Assembly: GCA_024638765.1 (NCBI GenBank)
Contig: JAHEJT010000005.1
Span: 1 to 64,000 of the forward strand
Source of the DNA: Verrucomicrobiales bacterium
GTDB lineage: Bacteria; Verrucomicrobiota; Verrucomicrobiia; Verrucomicrobiales; DEV007
Direction of reading: 5' to 3'
DNA: 64,000 nucleotides
This document shows positions 7,523 to 60,597 of the stretch, one piece after another. How positions within the stretch are numbered: position 1 is the first letter of the stretch; the number at the start of each line of letters is the position of its first letter. The translations under genes were made by a program, and so were the position numbers. The notes under the pieces are model-generated. The model did no database searches, was not told the DNA's origin, and saw only the letters and a program-made list of their open reading frames with translations.

Positions 7523-7552
7523 AACCGCGGATTTCGCGGATTTCCGCGGATG
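7523..7552. repeat. Nonamer-array repeat (AACCGCGGA type)
   Basis: Three consecutive words of nine to ten bases (AACCGCGGA, TTTCGCGGA, TTTCCGCGGA) form a short imperfect tandem array upstream of trpC. It is related to the arms around the GxxExxY cassette at 55643-56111. Confidence 0.55.
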
Positions 7553-34162: not shown

Positions 34163-35368
34163 ATGTCAAAATCCTACATTTTCTCCTCTGAATCCGTGAC
34201 CGAGGGGCATCCCGACAAGGTTGCCGACACCATCAGTGATTTCGTGGTCGATGCCTGTTTTGAAGACGACAAGCATAGCCGGGTGGCCTGCGAGACCATG
34301 GTCAAAGACAATATGGTGATCCTCGCGGGAGAGATCACCACCAACAGCGATTTCAATTACCAGACCATCTGCCGGCGGGCGATTAAAGACATCGGATACG
34401 TGCACGACGACTGCACCTTTCATGCCGATCGGTTCGTGTTCATCAACGGGTTGGGGCAGCAATCTCAGGACATTGCGCAGGGAGTGGACGCGGAAGCCGC
34501 CGAGGGGAAAGACACGGCGGAACAGGGTGCAGGGGACCAGGGTTTGATGTTCGGATATGCCTGCAAAGAAACCCCCGAGCTCATGCCGGCGCCCATCGTA
34601 TACGCGCACCAGCTCGGCCGCGAAGTGACGCGTGTGCGTAAAGCGGGCGAGATCGACTGGCTGCGCCCGGATTCAAAGACGCAGGTGTCGGTGCAGTACG
34701 TGGACGACAAGCCGGTGCGCATCAGTGCAATCGTGATTTCGACGCAGCACAGCGAAGATGTCTCCCACCAGGAGATCAAGGAGGCCATGACCGAACAGGT
34801 AATCCGGAAAATATTGCCGCAGGACAAGATCGATAACGACACGGAGATGCATATCAATCCGACGGGTCGATTTGTGATCGGCGGTCCGCAGGGCGATTGC
34901 GGGCTTACGGGCAGAAAGATCATTGTCGATACCTACGGAGGGATGGGCCGTCACGGCGGAGGCGCCTTTTCCGGGAAGGATCCCAGCAAGGTCGATCGCT
35001 CGGCCACCTACATGTGCCGCTGGGTTGCCAAGAACATCGTGGCGGCGGATCTCGCGGATAAATGCGAACTCCAGGTCGCCTACGCCATCGGTTATCCCAA
35101 TCCGGTGAGCATCAGCGTGAATACTTTCGGCACCAACAAGGTGGATGATTCCGCGATTGTGGATGCGGTCAAGCAGGTCTTTTCTTTCAAGCCGGCCGAC
35201 ATCGTCACGCAACTTGATCTGATGCGCCCGATTTACAAGTTCACCACGAATTACGGGCACTTCGGCCGGGAAGACAATCTCGATGCCCTTACCTGGGAGA
35301 AAAAGGACAAGGTCGATGCGTTGAAGGCGGCGGCTAAATCGGGGAAGAGCGTGGCGGTTGGTTCCTGA
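34163..35368 (+). CDS. metK: S-adenosylmethionine synthetase
   Basis: MetK makes S-adenosylmethionine from methionine and ATP. The 401-residue protein has [14 protein letters not shown] (residues 9-22), [26 protein letters not shown], the active-site stretch [20 protein letters not shown], and [16 protein letters not shown]. All are standard motifs, and the length is close to the typical 385-400. It is the first gene of a metK-ahcY unit, interrupted by a small cassette, and divergent from the sahR-like regulator. No SAM riboswitch fits in the 63-bp leader. Confidence 0.97.
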
Positions 35369-35388: not shown

Positions 35389-35813
35389 AGTTTCAAGTTT
35401 CCAGTTCCAAGGAGGAGATCAATACGGTGGCTTATCAATCGTTCGAAGATCTTCAAGTATGGCAGCGCAGTTGCGACTTGACGGTCGAAATCTGTCAGGA
35501 ACTGGAAGACTGCAGGAACTACACTTCTAGAGATCAGATGCAACGTGCGGCACTATCGGTTCCATCGAACATTGCTGAGGGCTCGGAGCGAGACAGCAAA
35601 GGAGATTTTATTCGATTTCTGCGAATTGCCAAAGGCTCGGCCGGGGAGCTGCGCACCCAGGCGTACATCGCAAAGCGTCTCAACTTAATCTCATCCGGCA
35701 AGGCCGATTCCTACGTAAAGGAAACAAAGGAAATCGGCGCGATGCTGCAGGGGCTGATCCGCTCCATGCAATCCTCAACTTGAAACTGAAAACTGAAAAC
35801 TTGAAACTTTAAT
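35389..35813. mobile_element. Four-helix-bundle gene cassette with inverted heptamer arms
   Basis: The left arm (35389-35410: GTTTCAA, GTTTCCA, GTTCCAA) and the right arm (35776-35813), read inverted as GTTTCAA, GTTTTCA, GTTTTCA, GTTTCAA, bracket a single small gene. Positions 35389-35406 and 35792-35809 match at 17 of 18 bases when inverted. The unit lies between metK and ahcY. No target-site duplication is obvious and no transposase is present. A mobile origin is inferred. Confidence 0.65.
35427..35783 (+). CDS. Four-helix-bundle protein (23S rRNA intervening-sequence protein family)
   Basis: From the GTG at 35427 the protein is 118 residues. It matches the family by FEDLQVWQRS at the start, LSVPSNIAEG in the middle and FLRIAKGSAGELRTQ. 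Homologues form pentameric four-helix bundles and were first found inside 23S rRNA intervening sequences; they also occur in scattered single-gene insertions. AAGGAGG, 11 bases before the GTG, is one of the best Shine-Dalgarno sites in the window. A start at 35358 would overlap metK and is rejected. The TGA stop lies within the right heptamer arm. Confidence 0.88.
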   Translation: MAYQSFEDLQVWQRSCDLTVEICQELEDCRNYTSRDQMQRAALSVPSNIAEGSERDSKGDFIRFLRIAKGSAGELRTQAYIAKRLNLISSGKADSYVKETKEIGAMLQGLIRSMQSST

Positions 35814-35816
35814 ACT

Positions 35817-37256
35817 ATGAGCACAGCGACAACCACAGAAGGACAGGATTTTAAGATCAAAGACATTGCCCTTGCGGAATTCGGCCGCAAGGAAATCGGT
35901 ATTGCCGAACAGGAAATGCCGGGATTGATGTCGGTGCGCGAGAAATACGCGGCGGAAAAACCGCTCCAGGGGGTCCGCATCATGGGCTCGCTGCACATGA
36001 CGATCCAGACGGCGGTGCTCATTGAGAGCTTGAAGGACCTCGGCGCGGATGTGCGCTGGGCCTCCTGCAACATTTTCTCGACCCAGGATCACGCGGCTGC
36101 GGCGATCGCTAAGGCGGGAGTGCCGGTTTTCGCGTGGAAAGGGGAAACCCTGGAGGAATACTGGGATTGCACCATCAGGGCGATGACCTGGCCGGACGGC
36201 AAGGGTCCGGAAATGATCGTGGACGACGGCGGGGACGCCACTCTTCTCATACACAAGGGTGTCCAGCTTGAGGATGGCAGCGACTGGGTAAACACCGAGT
36301 CCGGCAGCCACGAGGAACAGGTGATTAAAGATCTACTCAAAAAGGTTCACGCCGAAGATCCGCTGAAGTGGCACAATTACGTCAAGGATTGGAAAGGTGT
36401 TTCCGAGGAGACCACCACCGGGGTGCATCGCCTCATTGAAATGGCCGCGAGCGAGGAATTGCTGGTGCCGGCCATCAACGTGAACGACTCGGTCACGAAG
36501 AGCAAATTCGACAACCTTTACGGATGCCGTGAATCGCTGGTGGACGGCATCAAGCGCGCCACGGACGTGATGGTCGCCGGCAAGACCGCGGTCATCTGCG
36601 GGTATGGCGATGTGGGCAAGGGCTGCGTCCAGGCTTTGAAGGGGCTTGGCGCCCGGATCGTGGTAACGGAAATCGACCCCATTTGCGCGCTCCAGGCCGC
36701 GATGGAGGGTTACAAGGTGACGACCGTGGAGGAAACCCTCGGAGAAGGGGACATTTACGTCACCACGACCGGCAACAAGGACATCATCACGGCGGAACAC
36801 ATGTCGAAGATGAAAGACCAGGCGATCGTCTGCAACATCGGCCATTTCGACAACGAGATCCAGGTCGACAAGCTCGACAACTTTCCCGGGATCAAAGTGG
36901 AAGAGATCAAGCCGGAAGCCGAAGGCTCCGTGGACCGGTACACCTTCCCCGGCGGCAACGCGATTTACATGCTCGCCAAGGGCCGCCTCGTCAATCTCGG
37001 CTGTGCGACAGGGCACCCGAGTTTCGTGATGTCGAACAGCTTTGCCAACCAGGTGCTTGCGCAGATCGATCTCTGGGCGAACAAGGAAACCTACGTCCCC
37101 GGCGTTTACCTGCTTTCGAAGAAACTCGACGAGGAAGTGGCGCGGCTGCACCTCGAAAAAATCGGCGTCGTGCTCACGGAGTTGAGCGCAGAGCAGGCTG
37201 AATACATTGGCGTGCCGGTCGAAGGGCCTTACAAGCCGGATACTTACCGGTATTGA
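35817..37256 (+). CDS. ahcY: Adenosylhomocysteinase
   Basis: The enzyme splits S-adenosylhomocysteine to homocysteine and adenosine, removing the product that inhibits methyltransferases. The 479-residue protein has [33 protein letters not shown], the long internal insertion typical of bacterial enzymes (about 150-190), the NAD-binding loop [10 protein letters not shown] and NIGHFDNEI. It follows metK in the same direction, with a cassette between them. A strong terminator lies downstream. With metK and the divergent regulator it forms a SAM-cycle unit. Confidence 0.97.
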
Positions 37257-37327: not shown

Positions 37328-37403
37328 GACATGGGGATCGTGGGGCGCGAGTAGTGCAGTGTAACATTGATTTTTGACGACCGGTGTTTGCGATCGAAGG
37401 AAA

Positions 37404-37462
37404 GTAGCTGCGGCTTCCAGCCGCAGAATCCGCTTTGGACTGCGGCAGGATGCCGCAGCTAC
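37404..37462. repeat. GTAG-footed palindrome pair
   Basis: The 59-bp element starts GTAG and ends CTAC. Each half contains a CTGCGGC hairpin with a three-base loop (TCC on the left, GGA on the right). It is the same length as the copy at 40390-40448. Confidence 0.85.
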
Positions 37463-37489
37463 TCTCTGTCCGCGTCACCGGGTGCTTGA

Positions 37490-40388: not shown

Positions 40389-40389
40389 A

Positions 40390-40448
40390 GTAGCGGCGGC
40401 ATCCTGCCGCCGGATGGATTTAAAACGGCGGCAGAATGCCGCCGCTAC
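40390..40448. repeat. GTAG-footed palindrome pair at the ABC exporter start
   Basis: The 59-bp element has outer arms GTAGCGGCGGCA and its inverted copy, each half with a GGCGGCA hairpin. It ends one base from the annotated ATG of the ABC exporter on the minus strand, taking the place of a ribosome binding site. Confidence 0.85.
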
Positions 40449-40474
40449 TTCCCTTTCGAACCCGTAACGTATGC

Positions 40475-54902: not shown

Positions 54903-55028
54903 TCTTGAGATTCGAGAGGAGGATGCACCTGATCCCGGATTGGTTCAACAAAATATGGATGCGCCGACGCGCGTGTGCGCGACTTGCGGAAGTCCAGTTG
55001 TGAGGCTGAGCCGGGGGCAACGGCCTTG

Positions 55029-55631
55029 TCAGGAAGCCATGTAGCGCAGTGCTTTCGCGGTGGCTTCGGTTGCCTGCGCACCCTCGAGCAACTCTCCGAT
55101 GGGATCCCAGCGGCCGTGGACGAGGGCGTCGTGGGCGCTCTCGGGAATGTCGACCGCAAAGCTTTCTTCACCGTAATGGACCCGGCGGTTTTCGACGTTG
55201 ATGCGGATCTCCGTGGAGGGATCGGCGTCCACGGCAGCGGTCAGTCCCTTAATTTCTTGCGCCGAGGCGGCGACACAGGGCACGCCCAGGGTCGCGCAGT
55301 TGCCGAAAAAAATCTCCGCGAAGGATTCGGCGATGACGGCGCGGAAGCCGTAGCGGTAAAGCGCCTGCGGGGCGTGCTCGCGGGAGGAGCCGCAGCCGAA
55401 ATTGGAACCCGCAATGAGGATGGCGGCATCCTTGAACTGGGGATCGTTGAGCGGGTGGTTCTTTTCCGTGCCGTCTTCGTTGAAGCGGACGTCGTAGAAC
55501 AGGTATTCACCGAGCCCATCGAAGGTGACGCATTTCATGAAGCGGGCCGGGATGATTCGGTCCGTATCGACATCGGAACCCGGGACGTAAACGCCCTTGC
55601 CGGTGACTGAAGTAATCTTATCAAGTGCCAT
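55029..55631 (-). CDS. leuD: 3-isopropylmalate dehydratase small subunit
   Basis: LeuD pairs with LeuC to isomerise 2- to 3-isopropylmalate in leucine synthesis. The 200-residue protein from the ATG at 55631 has DVDTDRIIPARFM, GSNFGCGSSREHAPQAL and the swivelling domain. A longer frame to 55739 runs into the cassette inserted upstream and is not real. The inverted arm of the cassette begins 11 bases before the ATG, so the original leader and ribosome binding site have been replaced by TTTATTAAAAAAA. The gene order is leuC, cassette, leuD on the minus strand. Confidence 0.96.
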   Translation of the reverse strand: MALDKITSVTGKGVYVPGSDVDTDRIIPARFMKCVTFDGLGEYLFYDVRFNEDGTEKNHPLNDPQFKDAAILIAGSNFGCGSSREHAPQALYRYGFRAVIAESFAEIFFGNCATLGVPCVAASAQEIKGLTAAVDADPSTEIRINVENRRVHYGEESFAVDIPESAHDALVHGRWDPIGELLEGAQATEATAKALRYMAS

Positions 55632-55642
55632 TTTTTTTAATA

Positions 55643-56111
55643 AACCGCGAAAGACGCTAAAGAAGCGAAAATTCAGATTCTTCCTTTGGATTTGATGTCC
55701 GGACAATTCGCTCCCATTCCACTTGGGGGTGATGCCCAAAATTTACGAGAAGGCCGAGCTGAAAATTGCCTGCCTTCAGGTAGTTGAAAAGTTGGGCCCG
55801 ATGTTCGTCCAAGAGCTTCTTCACCGCCTTTAATTCGACGACAATCTTCCCGAAACAAACAAAGTCAGGTTCGAACTTCTTTTTGAGGGTGACACCCTTA
55901 TACGCAATGTCCAGATGGGGCTTGGGTATGGCTGGAATGTCCTGATACCCGAATTCCATTTCCAAAGATTCCTGGTATACCTCTTCCACAAATCCGCACC
56001 CTTCTTCCTTGTACACCTCAAAGCACGCCCCCATAATCCGGTAGCTCTCGTCTTTAAAAAGAATCTCCTCCCCCTTTTCCATTTTTCGCTTCTTTCGCGT
56101 TTTTCGCGGTT
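55643..56111. mobile_element. GxxExxY gene cassette with 29-bp inverted nonamer arms
   Basis: Bases 55643-55671 and the inverse of 56083-56111 match at 27 of 29 positions. Both arms are made of nonamers: AACCGCGAA, AAACGCGAA or AGACGCTAA, then AGAAGCGAA. The enclosed gene starts on the base after the right arm and stops inside the left arm. The cassette fills the leuC-leuD spacer (12 bp to the leuC stop, 11 bp to the leuD start). No target duplication or transposase is seen. Confidence 0.75.
55657..56082 (-). CDS. GxxExxY protein (PD-(D/E)xK nuclease-like)
   Basis: The 141-residue protein has the signature Gly30-x-x-Glu33-x-x-Tyr36 and a PD-(D/E)xK-type core with Asp73 in EPDF and Glu83/Lys85 in VELK. 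GxxExxY proteins are a small family related to PD-(D/E)xK nucleases; the biological role is unknown. Active-site residues look intact here. The start codon directly follows the right inverted arm, and the TAG stop lies inside the left arm. It sits between leuC and leuD in the same direction and is thought to be a mobile gene. Confidence 0.9.
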   Translation of the reverse strand: MEKGEEILFKDESYRIMGACFEVYKEEGCGFVEEVYQESLEMEFGYQDIPAIPKPHLDIAYKGVTLKKKFEPDFVCFGKIVVELKAVKKLLDEHRAQLFNYLKAGNFQLGLLVNFGHHPQVEWERIVRTSNPKEESEFSLL

Positions 56112-56123
56112 AGCAATCCGGGA

Positions 56124-57551
56124 CTAGGCGGGGACGGGGTCGCCGACGTGGAAGACTTCGCGGGCGTCGCTGATCACGCCGGTCACAGCGGCGGCGGCCA
56201 CCATCACCGGGCTCATCAGCACGGTGCGTCCCGTGGGACTGCCTTGGCGGCCCTTGAAATTCCGATTGCTGGAGCTGGCGCAAAGCTCGTCGCCGACCAG
56301 CTTGTCCGGGTTCATCGCCAGGCACATGGAACATCCCGCCCCGCGCCATTCGAAGCCGGCTTCTTCGAAAATCTTGTCGAGGCCCTCCTCCCGGCATTGC
56401 CGGGCCACGATCTGCGATCCCGGGACGGCAATCGCTTTTACGTTGGGGGCGACGCGGTGACCCTGAATATACTTCGCGACTTCCTGGAAATCCGAGAGAC
56501 GCCCGTTGGTGCAGCTGCCGAGAAAGGCGACATTAACAGGGGTGCCCTTGATGGGCGCGCCCGGCGCGAGATGCATGTGCTCGAGCGCTTCGGTGACCGA
56601 CGCTTTCCGGGCTTCGTCTTCAATCGCCTCGGGATCGGGCAGGTTCTCGTTGATGAACATGCCGTGATCCACACTGATGCCCCAGGTCACGGAAGGCTCG
56701 ATGTCCTCCGCGCGGATGTTGATCACATCGTCGTATTCCGCATCCGGATCCGAAGCCACCGCTTTCCAGTTGGCGACGGCGGCGTCCCATTCCGCGCCGG
56801 AAGGGCAATAAGGCCTGCCCTTGAGATAAGCAAACGTGGTCTCGTCGGGATTGACGTACCCGCACCGCGCCCCGCCCTCGATCGACATGTTGCAGACCGT
56901 CATGCGTTCCTCCATGGAGAAATTGTCGAAGACCGAGCCGCCGTATTCGTAGGCGAAGCCGATGCCGCCCTTGGCGCCGAGCGTCTTAATGATGTCCAGG
57001 ATGACGTCCTTGGCGTAAACGCCGGGCGGCAGCTCCCCGTCGACATTGATGCGGCGGACCTTGAGCTTGCTCATGGCCATGGTCTGAGTGGCGAGGACGT
57101 CGCGCACCTGGGTGGTGCCGATGCCAAAGGCGATCGCGCCGAAAGCCCCGTGCGTGGAAGTGTGTGAATCCCCGCAGGCGATCGTGGTGCCCGGCTGCGT
57201 GATTCCTTCCTCGGGACCGACCACGTGGACGATGCCCTGTTTGCCGCTCTCCAGATCGAAGTAAGTGATGCCGAATTCCTCCGCGTTCGTGCGGAGTTCC
57301 TTGATCATGGCGTCGGCCAACGGGTCCGCGAACGGTTCCTCTTGGCGGTCGGTGGGGACGATGTGATCCACGGTGGCAAAGGTGCGCTGCGGGTACTTTA
57401 CCTTGAGGCCGAGGTCACGGAGCATTCCGAAGGCCTGCGGACTGGTGACCTCGTGAATCAGGTGCGTCCCGATCAACAATTGCGTTTGCCCGTTGGATAG
57501 GGTGCGCACCGCGTGCGCGTCCCATACTTTTTGAAATAGATTTTGTCCCAT
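56124..57551 (-). CDS. leuC: 3-isopropylmalate dehydratase large subunit
   Basis: LeuC carries the 4Fe-4S cluster and most of the active site of isopropylmalate isomerase. The 475-residue protein has [54 protein letters not shown] and the [20 protein letters not shown] end motif. Cluster Cys residues are in SCTNG and CSMC. It is transcribed toward leuD with the GxxExxY cassette between them. The 245-bp upstream region has no clear leader peptide or attenuator. Confidence 0.97.
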
Positions 57552-60168: not shown

Positions 60169-60597
60169 AACCGCGAATGGACACACTGCCAAGCGCGGAG
60201 CGCATCTCATCGACCGAAGGCATTCTGCAGAGCCCGCCGTAGGCGGGATAAATGAACACTAATTACTTTTCAATTGTCATCCTGAGCGGAGTCGAAGGAT
60301 CTCTCTTAATGGTATTACCGCGTTCTCAAGTCGAAAAGGGTTTGATACAGCGTGGGCTTACAAATGTATCCAGTTCTTCTTCGCCTTCTAGATCGTCCTG
60401 GACCGACAGCGAGATCCCTCGACTCCGCTCGGGATGACACGAAAGGGAGATTGGTAAGACACAAGTCGGAAAACGATCCCACATCGGCTCCTTTAAAGAT
60501 TCGTGTCCATTTATCACGGCCCTTCGGGCCGCGCTCTGCAGTCAGGCTTCGCCATTTATTCCGCGCTCTGCGCTTGGCAGTGCGTCCATTCGCGGTT
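60169..60597. repeat. Nested inverted repeats filling the 478-bp intergenic region
   Basis: The outer arms begin AACCGCGAATGGAC and continue with CACTGCCAAGCGC. The left copy (60169-60203) and the inverted right copy match at about 33 of 35 positions. The right unit contains the core CTCTGCAGTCAGGC and GCGCTTGGCAGT, also present at 31074-31120 and 33078-33136. A second, different inverted pair lies inside (60276-60438). No gene is seen in the gap. Confidence 0.75.
60276..60438. repeat. Inner inverted pair of GTCATCCTGAGCGGAGTC-type repeats
   Basis: GTCATCCTGAGCGGAGTC at 60276 and its inverted copy ending at 60438 match at about 26 of 29 positions over their length. The type is widely scattered in bacterial genomes. 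It lies wholly within the outer pair 60169-60597, showing that one repeat was inserted into another. Confidence 0.75.

Follow-up and report, generated by a model that had tools for sequence, protein, structure and literature searches.

In the 64,000-nt stretch analysed here (the window), from the draft genome of a Verrucomicrobiales bacterium, the genes leuC and leuD are separated by a spacer of 492 bp, of which 469 bp (55643-56111) are taken up by a compact element, a GxxExxY gene enclosed by two inverted arms. The features of the locus are the following:

55029..55631, minus strand: leuD, downstream operon gene, on the same strand as the GxxExxY gene
55643..55671, plus strand: 3' arm (inverted), AACCGCGAAAGACGCTAAAGAAGCGAAAA, with the stop codon inside
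55646..55652, plus strand: 3' arm core 1, CGCGAAA
55655..55661, plus strand: 3' arm core 2, CGCTAAA, spacing 9
55664..55670, plus strand: 3' arm core 3, AGCGAAA, spacing 9
55657..56082, minus strand: GxxExxY gene, 141 aa, PD-(D/E)XK nuclease with motifs GxxE...D...(E/D)xK...QxxxY
56083..56111, minus strand: 5' arm (gene sense), AACCGCGAAAAACGCGAAAGAAGCGAAAA
56084..56090, minus strand: 5' arm core 3, AGCGAAA, spacing 9
56093..56099, minus strand: 5' arm core 2, CGCGAAA, spacing 9
56102..56108, minus strand: 5' arm core 1, CGCGAAA
56124..57551, minus strand: leuC, upstream operon gene, on the same strand as the GxxExxY gene

The arms, 29 nt each and 411 nt apart, are complementary at 27 of 29 positions. 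The architecture proposed in the initial annotation was thus confirmed at 55643-55671 and 56083-56111: the ATG abuts the 5' arm, the stop codon lies inside the 3' arm, and the element fills the spacer almost exactly. Its description of the arms as nonamer repeats holds in that there is a repeated unit, but this unit is better given as three 7-bp cores at spacing 9,9, preceded in the window element by a NAC lead. In the entire 64-kb window, just a handful of inverted pairs up to 2.5 kb apart are as long and as well matched. Allowing up to three mismatches, the window-arm sequence has 18 matches in its own 5.4-Mb draft genome and its reversed control has none; this marks the arm as a dispersed repeat rather than a chance resemblance. 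The element ends are placed to 2-3 bases, by arm comparison alone. A search of Rfam over window positions 55000-57000 gave no match.

Several other repeats were observed in the window. A second element (35389-35850), co-directional with its neighbours metK (34163-35368) and ahcY (35817-37256), consists of a gene for an S23 four-helix bundle and arms made of heptamers (AGTTTCA AGTTTCC...). Throughout the phylum, genes of the S23 family (TIGR02436) located outside rRNA (L026-L041, L102-L130) likewise have inverted tandem-heptamer arms, each element with a heptamer of its own; the best arm period is 7 in 68 of 74 cases and 8 in the remaining six. A lone core triple, CGCGGAT x3 (9,10), occupies the intergenic positions 7526-7551 between divergent genes. 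Arms of 35 nt beginning with AACCGCGAATGGAC delimit the region 60169-60597, which represents another repeat family, has no GxxExxY gene and contains a nested second pair, TGTCATCCTGAGCGGAGTCGAAGGATC, at 60275-60439. Short GTAG-like hairpins, similar to the REPs of RAYT systems, are found at 2540-2597, 37400-37466, and 40389-40449.

The assignment of the gene to the GxxExxY family and to PD-(D/E)xK-like proteins was borne out by full-length profile matches (TIGR04256 GxxExxY, E 7.9e-38; PF13366 PDDEXK_3, E 1.4e-37), scoring 129 bits against curated cut-offs of 35 and 22, and by the conserved motifs. Among 19 diverse members, residues G30, E33, D73, K85, Q97, Y101, and N114 are invariant, and residue 83 is E or D; the active site of the window protein (E33, D73, E83-L-K85, Q97, Y101) is intact, and the nuclease residues are conserved. 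The best PDB folds for the structure model (pLDDT 83 from a five-sequence alignment, 34 from the single sequence) were SSO0001 (E 4.9e-5, TM 0.54), which we take to be a Cas4, followed by alkaline and lambda exonucleases; Hjc resolvases were weaker. The GxxExxY protein thus models as a minimal RecB/Cas4/lambda-exonuclease-like nuclease. No significant solved relative was found by sequence, the best result of the profile search being T7 endonuclease I (E 0.8). The Pfam scan returned PF13366 alone, with neither an HUH/Y1 nor an S23 four-helix-bundle domain, and the protein matched no known transposase family. Membership in a defence system or a phage family was rejected, as the matches were weak and partial. 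To our knowledge, no biochemical activity of a GxxExxY protein has been described.

Inverted arms surround 88% of the 89 GxxExxY loci of the phylum, while swapped-flank controls reach the same score in 4.9%. The expectation that other GxxExxY genes would be flanked by such arms is therefore largely borne out, but about one gene in ten has no detectable arms (L006 and L100 are examples), and these genes count against reading the family as selfish elements. The general arm consists of three copies of the core CRCNNAN at an element-specific spacing of 8-11 bp, with C at position 3 in 387 of 390 core units and A at position 6 in 388 of 390. The two arms of one element agree at 95% of core positions and 50% of linker positions (33% for linkers between elements), and the identity drops just outside the cores and arms. 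The genome of the window has seven GxxExxY matches, five of them with both flanks, and arms are found in four of these five; their cores differ by copy: CGCAGAT (L001), CGCGAAA (the window element), CGCTGAT (L004), and CGCAAAA-type (L005), whereas no arms were detected in L006. The reading frame of copy L001 (1501-1842 of G000:C76) is broken by an in-frame TAG, and its 38-nt arms are nested; it is a decayed GxxExxY copy within a repeat cluster.

GxxExxY was met in at least six phyla. Arms were found around the genes of Bacteroides finegoldii (between radA and a gene for an FAD protein), Sphingomonas (fabD-fabG), Bernardetia, and Gemmatirosa; the Prevotella gene has related repeats, Treponema is a weak case, and the flanks in Persicobacter and a Fusobacterium lack arms of the triple-core kind. 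A relative in a Planctomycetota MAG, with a protein 64% identical to that of the window, has CACGAAA arms at an unrelated site, its gene being opposed to the flanking genes. Three relatives occur on viral contigs, and two of these (L190 and L191, IMG/VR) have AT-rich inverted arms of different make-up. On the Fusobacteria plasmid pZRK30-1 (L274), the GxxExxY gene is flanked by direct repeats, CAGATTTAATCCGTGTACCTAT, in place of inverted arms.

The initial annotation had taken the gene and its arms for a compact mobile unit and proposed looking for empty leuC-leuD sites in close relatives, with vertical occupation of the locus in all relatives as the refuting outcome. Mobility is supported by comparisons of operon junctions, and the locus is unoccupied in relatives: the GxxExxY element is absent from all 14 family relatives with adjacent leuC and leuD, which are distant (LeuD 65-74% identical) and have spacers of 23-122 bp, except one with an unrelated insertion. 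In that spacer (L052 in G007, 1086 bp), different inverted repeats flank an unrelated gene. The gatA-gatB junction offers a closer comparison: full elements (452-503 bp) are present in six genomes, a 221-bp version with a truncated GxxExxY reading frame in G076, gene-less pairs with CGCGAAT cores in G157 and G118, and gene-less pairs that are mostly like S23-type heptamer repeats in G149, G133, G146, and G106, other genomes having short spacers. G097 has the element at this junction and G106 does not, at 93% identity of gatA and 96% of gatB. Within one genus, the junction between alaS and a gene that we take, from its sequence, to be leuB is empty in six species (94-105 bp), holds GxxExxY elements in two species (cores CGCAGAT and CGCGAAT, spacing 10,10), and in three others holds a gene in heptamer arms whose product, judging by the sequences, is presumably S23. 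Together, these comparisons show gain, loss and replacement of the element at the operon junctions of related genomes. Some insertions look vertical over several genera, which counts against the selfish-element reading; loci with similar cores (L096/L177/L181 and L157/L179) are common to several genera within a single family. Direct repeats were not in excess in 38 clean elements; thus, there is no target-site duplication and no transposition footprint, another point against this reading.

Arm design follows the protein rather than the host. On a tree of 88 GxxExxY proteins (115 columns), in which many forks are open and from which only tests independent of single forks were drawn, the core class changes 26 times, against 41.9 times with shuffled labels (minimum 36 of 300) and 37.7 times with labels shuffled within genomes only (minimum 32 of 300). 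For the genome of origin, 74 changes were counted against a mean of 74.0 after shuffling; therefore, copies within one genome are no closer to each other than random ones; the closest protein relative sits in another host family for 55 of the 88. In comparisons across host families, proteins that are more alike also have more similar core letters (rho 0.330, against 0.046 +/- 0.043 for permutations within genomes, 0/1000) and spacing (rho 0.152, 0/1000 permutations), and multi-family clades share a design: GAAA/GAAT at 9,9; TGAT/TAAT at 10,10; GGAT/AGAT at 9,10; and ACAA at 10,9. These patterns indicate that core and spacing go with the protein clade across host families, and that the gene and its arms are inherited as one unit. 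For S23 proteins, the correlation with the arms is weaker (rho 0.138, 16/1000).

Arms of the same variants also occur around the genome as gene-less inverted pairs or as single copies. Over some 445 kb of the genome of the window, 28 core triples were counted from searches and retrieved stretches, compared with three when the complete 845 kb examined were replaced by an order-1 Markov copy. Gene-less inverted pairs in this genome span 116-175 bp with CGCGAAA at 9,9, while others have CGCAGAT at 9,10 or CGCTGAT at 10,10, the cores being those of the resident elements. Their interiors look unrelated by eye, so the pairs did not arise simply by internal deletion from a single copy, which counts against the selfish-element reading. 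In a set of 32 genomes, those with a known resident of this class have 4-38 CRCGAAA arms, and mostly none are found elsewhere (p = 2e-5). The dispersed arms also show the variant of the resident itself, such as the middle core CACGAAG in G144 and CACCAAA in G133. An exception that also counts against this reading is G157, in which 21 CRCGAAA arms were found and a matching resident was not.

With codon-scored orientation calls, and with 11 GxxExxY orientations corrected by HMM, both neighbours are on the element's own strand for 60 of 72 GxxExxY elements and on the opposite strand for three, nine being arranged otherwise; since the same-strand baseline for neighbours is 0.60-0.63, only about 31% would be expected to be co-directional. 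For S23 elements, 28 are co-directional, five opposed and none otherwise. Gene-less arms are at the baseline (14 in same-strand settings, seven in others) and show no operon preference. Hence gene-bearing copies are almost always co-directional inside host operons, and gene-less arms are not. We read this setting as a sign that intact elements need to be transcribed by the host, rather than that operons are targeted.

Four other explanations were weighed. The arms could be moved by another enzyme, most likely a resident Y1/RAYT transposase, with GxxExxY as cargo or otherwise employed. Y1/RAYT genes are indeed present in all 17 genomes tested (18 Y1 transposase matches in the genome of the window), three arm copies adjoin one Y1 gene in G096, and RAYTs have been proposed to act on REP doublets whose spacers vary (PMC3116915). 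However, none of 20 Y1/RAYT loci of these genomes has paired triple-core arms, any paired repeats that they do have being mostly GTAG-type palindromes, and RAYT was rejected as the owner of the arms; moreover, the arm variant goes with the GxxExxY clade and the arm copy number with resident GxxExxY elements. We consider this explanation unlikely. The arms could also act as RNA, the element being an intervening sequence of polycistronic mRNA that folds into a stem and is cut out by RNase III, as S23 intervening sequences are from 23S rRNA, with the protein as a passenger. The strong co-directional operon setting fits, the sense transcript is able to fold into the complete stem of the two arms (MFE -154, z -2.0), and excision by RNase III has been shown for the S23 intervening sequence of Coxiella, which has tandem heptamers GACAGAT and a 28-bp terminal stem (PMC4990558). 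Yet arm mismatches in the sense transcript have no G-U bias (87 of G-U type vs 106 of A-C type, p = 0.19; 21 vs 39 for S23) and the linkers match far more loosely than the cores, which makes the arms look more like sites recognised in DNA than like an RNA stem. Neither test supports a stem, gene-less arms of the same families have no operon preference, and co-variation of the core with the protein clade is needless for a plain stem, which makes an RNA role decidedly unlikely.

The repeated occupation of the same conserved-gene junctions, presence and absence among congeners, and the decaying reading frame in G076 could also be expected of a homing-type selfish nuclease, which would cleave empty junctions and spread when these are repaired by recombination; the arms would then be mere end structures or regulatory sites. 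What argues against homing is that one junction takes different cores and even S23 elements, that one core class is found at many unrelated junctions, that it is the arms and not the flanks that contain conserved, recognisable sequence, and that gene-less arms are dispersed; this mode of spread seems more improbable still. Finally, the gene might be a vertically inherited, non-mobile host gene, e.g., a regulator tuning its operon through the arms, as the loci common to several genera of one family (L096/L177/L181 and L157/L179) might suggest. As a general account, this is contradicted by the within-genome copies that are no closer than random ones and by the states of the leuB-alaS junction; the absence of the element from leuC-leuD in relatives, junction states changing within genera, and the many closest relatives in other families also speak against it, leaving it very little probability.

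Taken together, the data point to miniature mobile elements of a family not yet described. The element is probably a selfish unit that combines a single nuclease gene with recognition sites of its own, following a REP/RAYT-like logic by means of an unrelated nuclease, and we infer that this nuclease moves it. That the protein could cut or process its arms, as the initial annotation suggested, gains indirect support from the way arm core and spacing co-vary with the protein clade and from the intact RecB/Cas4-like active site. The co-directional position in operons, the gene-less derivatives, and the S23/heptamer elements at shared junctions come in addition to what that annotation noted. The GxxExxY nuclease would bind the three cores of each arm as DNA, bring the two inverted arms together, and nick or cut at or near their outer ends; this step would set off the copying or transposition of the element itself and, acting in trans, of arm pairs that lack a gene. 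The element appears to be promoterless and transcribed by the host operon, which may be why intact copies are those in the direction of the operon. A broader reading is offered tentatively: GxxExxY proteins would be transposases of a new type, single-domain Cas4-like PD-(D/E)XK enzymes that recognise paired inverted arrays of three 7-bp cores and spread themselves and gene-less arm pairs without target duplication, and together with the S23/heptamer elements they would make up a superclass of selfish elements living in operons, to which the rRNA intervening sequences would also belong. With the selfish-unit reading, a family of unknown role gains a candidate substrate in the form of a defined recognition array, and there would be an explanation for a class of iterated repeats, CCACAGAGGCACAGAGGACACAGAG and related ones, that is dispersed between the genes of these genomes. 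No earlier description of GxxExxY arm elements was found in the open-access literature searched, although publications elsewhere could hold one; the titles and abstracts of open-access papers naming GxxExxY or PDDEXK_3/PF13366 make no link to repeats.

Like MITEs and single-gene insertion sequences, the elements have terminal inverted repeats, one gene, and gene-less derivatives; unlike them, they encode no known transposase family, leave no target-site duplication, and have arms built of repeated cores. The nuclease shares the fold and the motif order GxxE...D...ExK...QxxxY with Cas4 and lambda exonuclease, but is shorter (141 vs about 200 residues), has no conserved Fe-S cysteines in the alignment, and stands alone between arms with no CRISPR or recombinase partner seen. 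The S23 intervening sequences also place a small ORF between inverted arms of short tandem units, and the S23 elements of this phylum, with their heptamer arms, are found at the same operon junctions as GxxExxY elements. Their protein, in contrast, is a four-helix bundle and not the unrelated nuclease found here, their arm period is 7-8 instead of 8-11, and the intervening sequences reside in 23S rRNA and are excised by RNase III, whereas GxxExxY elements reside in protein-coding operons and a function of their arms as RNA stems is unsupported. Since S23 elements share junctions and architecture, with a different repeat period, rRNA intervening sequences may be placed in a wider class of promoterless elements between co-transcribed genes, with leuC-leuD, gatA-gatB, nuoD-nuoE, metK-ahcY, and fabD-fabG as example junctions.

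In RAYT systems, gene-flanking repeats are dispersed as inverted pairs and singlets, the variant matches the resident gene, and copies are often closer to copies in other genomes (PMC3116915). The elements described here resemble REPIN-RAYT systems in having one nuclease-type gene between repeats and intergenic dispersal of these repeats, in the resident-matched variant, as inverted pairs and singlets, and in that a copy is often closer to copies of other genomes. They differ in the enzyme, PD-(D/E)XK here and HUH Y1 in RAYT; in the arms, which consist of three direct cores CRCNNAN, while REPs are short GTAG/CGTC-tagged palindromes; and in the co-directional position of gene-bearing copies in operons. 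GxxExxY elements would thus add a REPIN-like system built on an unrelated nuclease.
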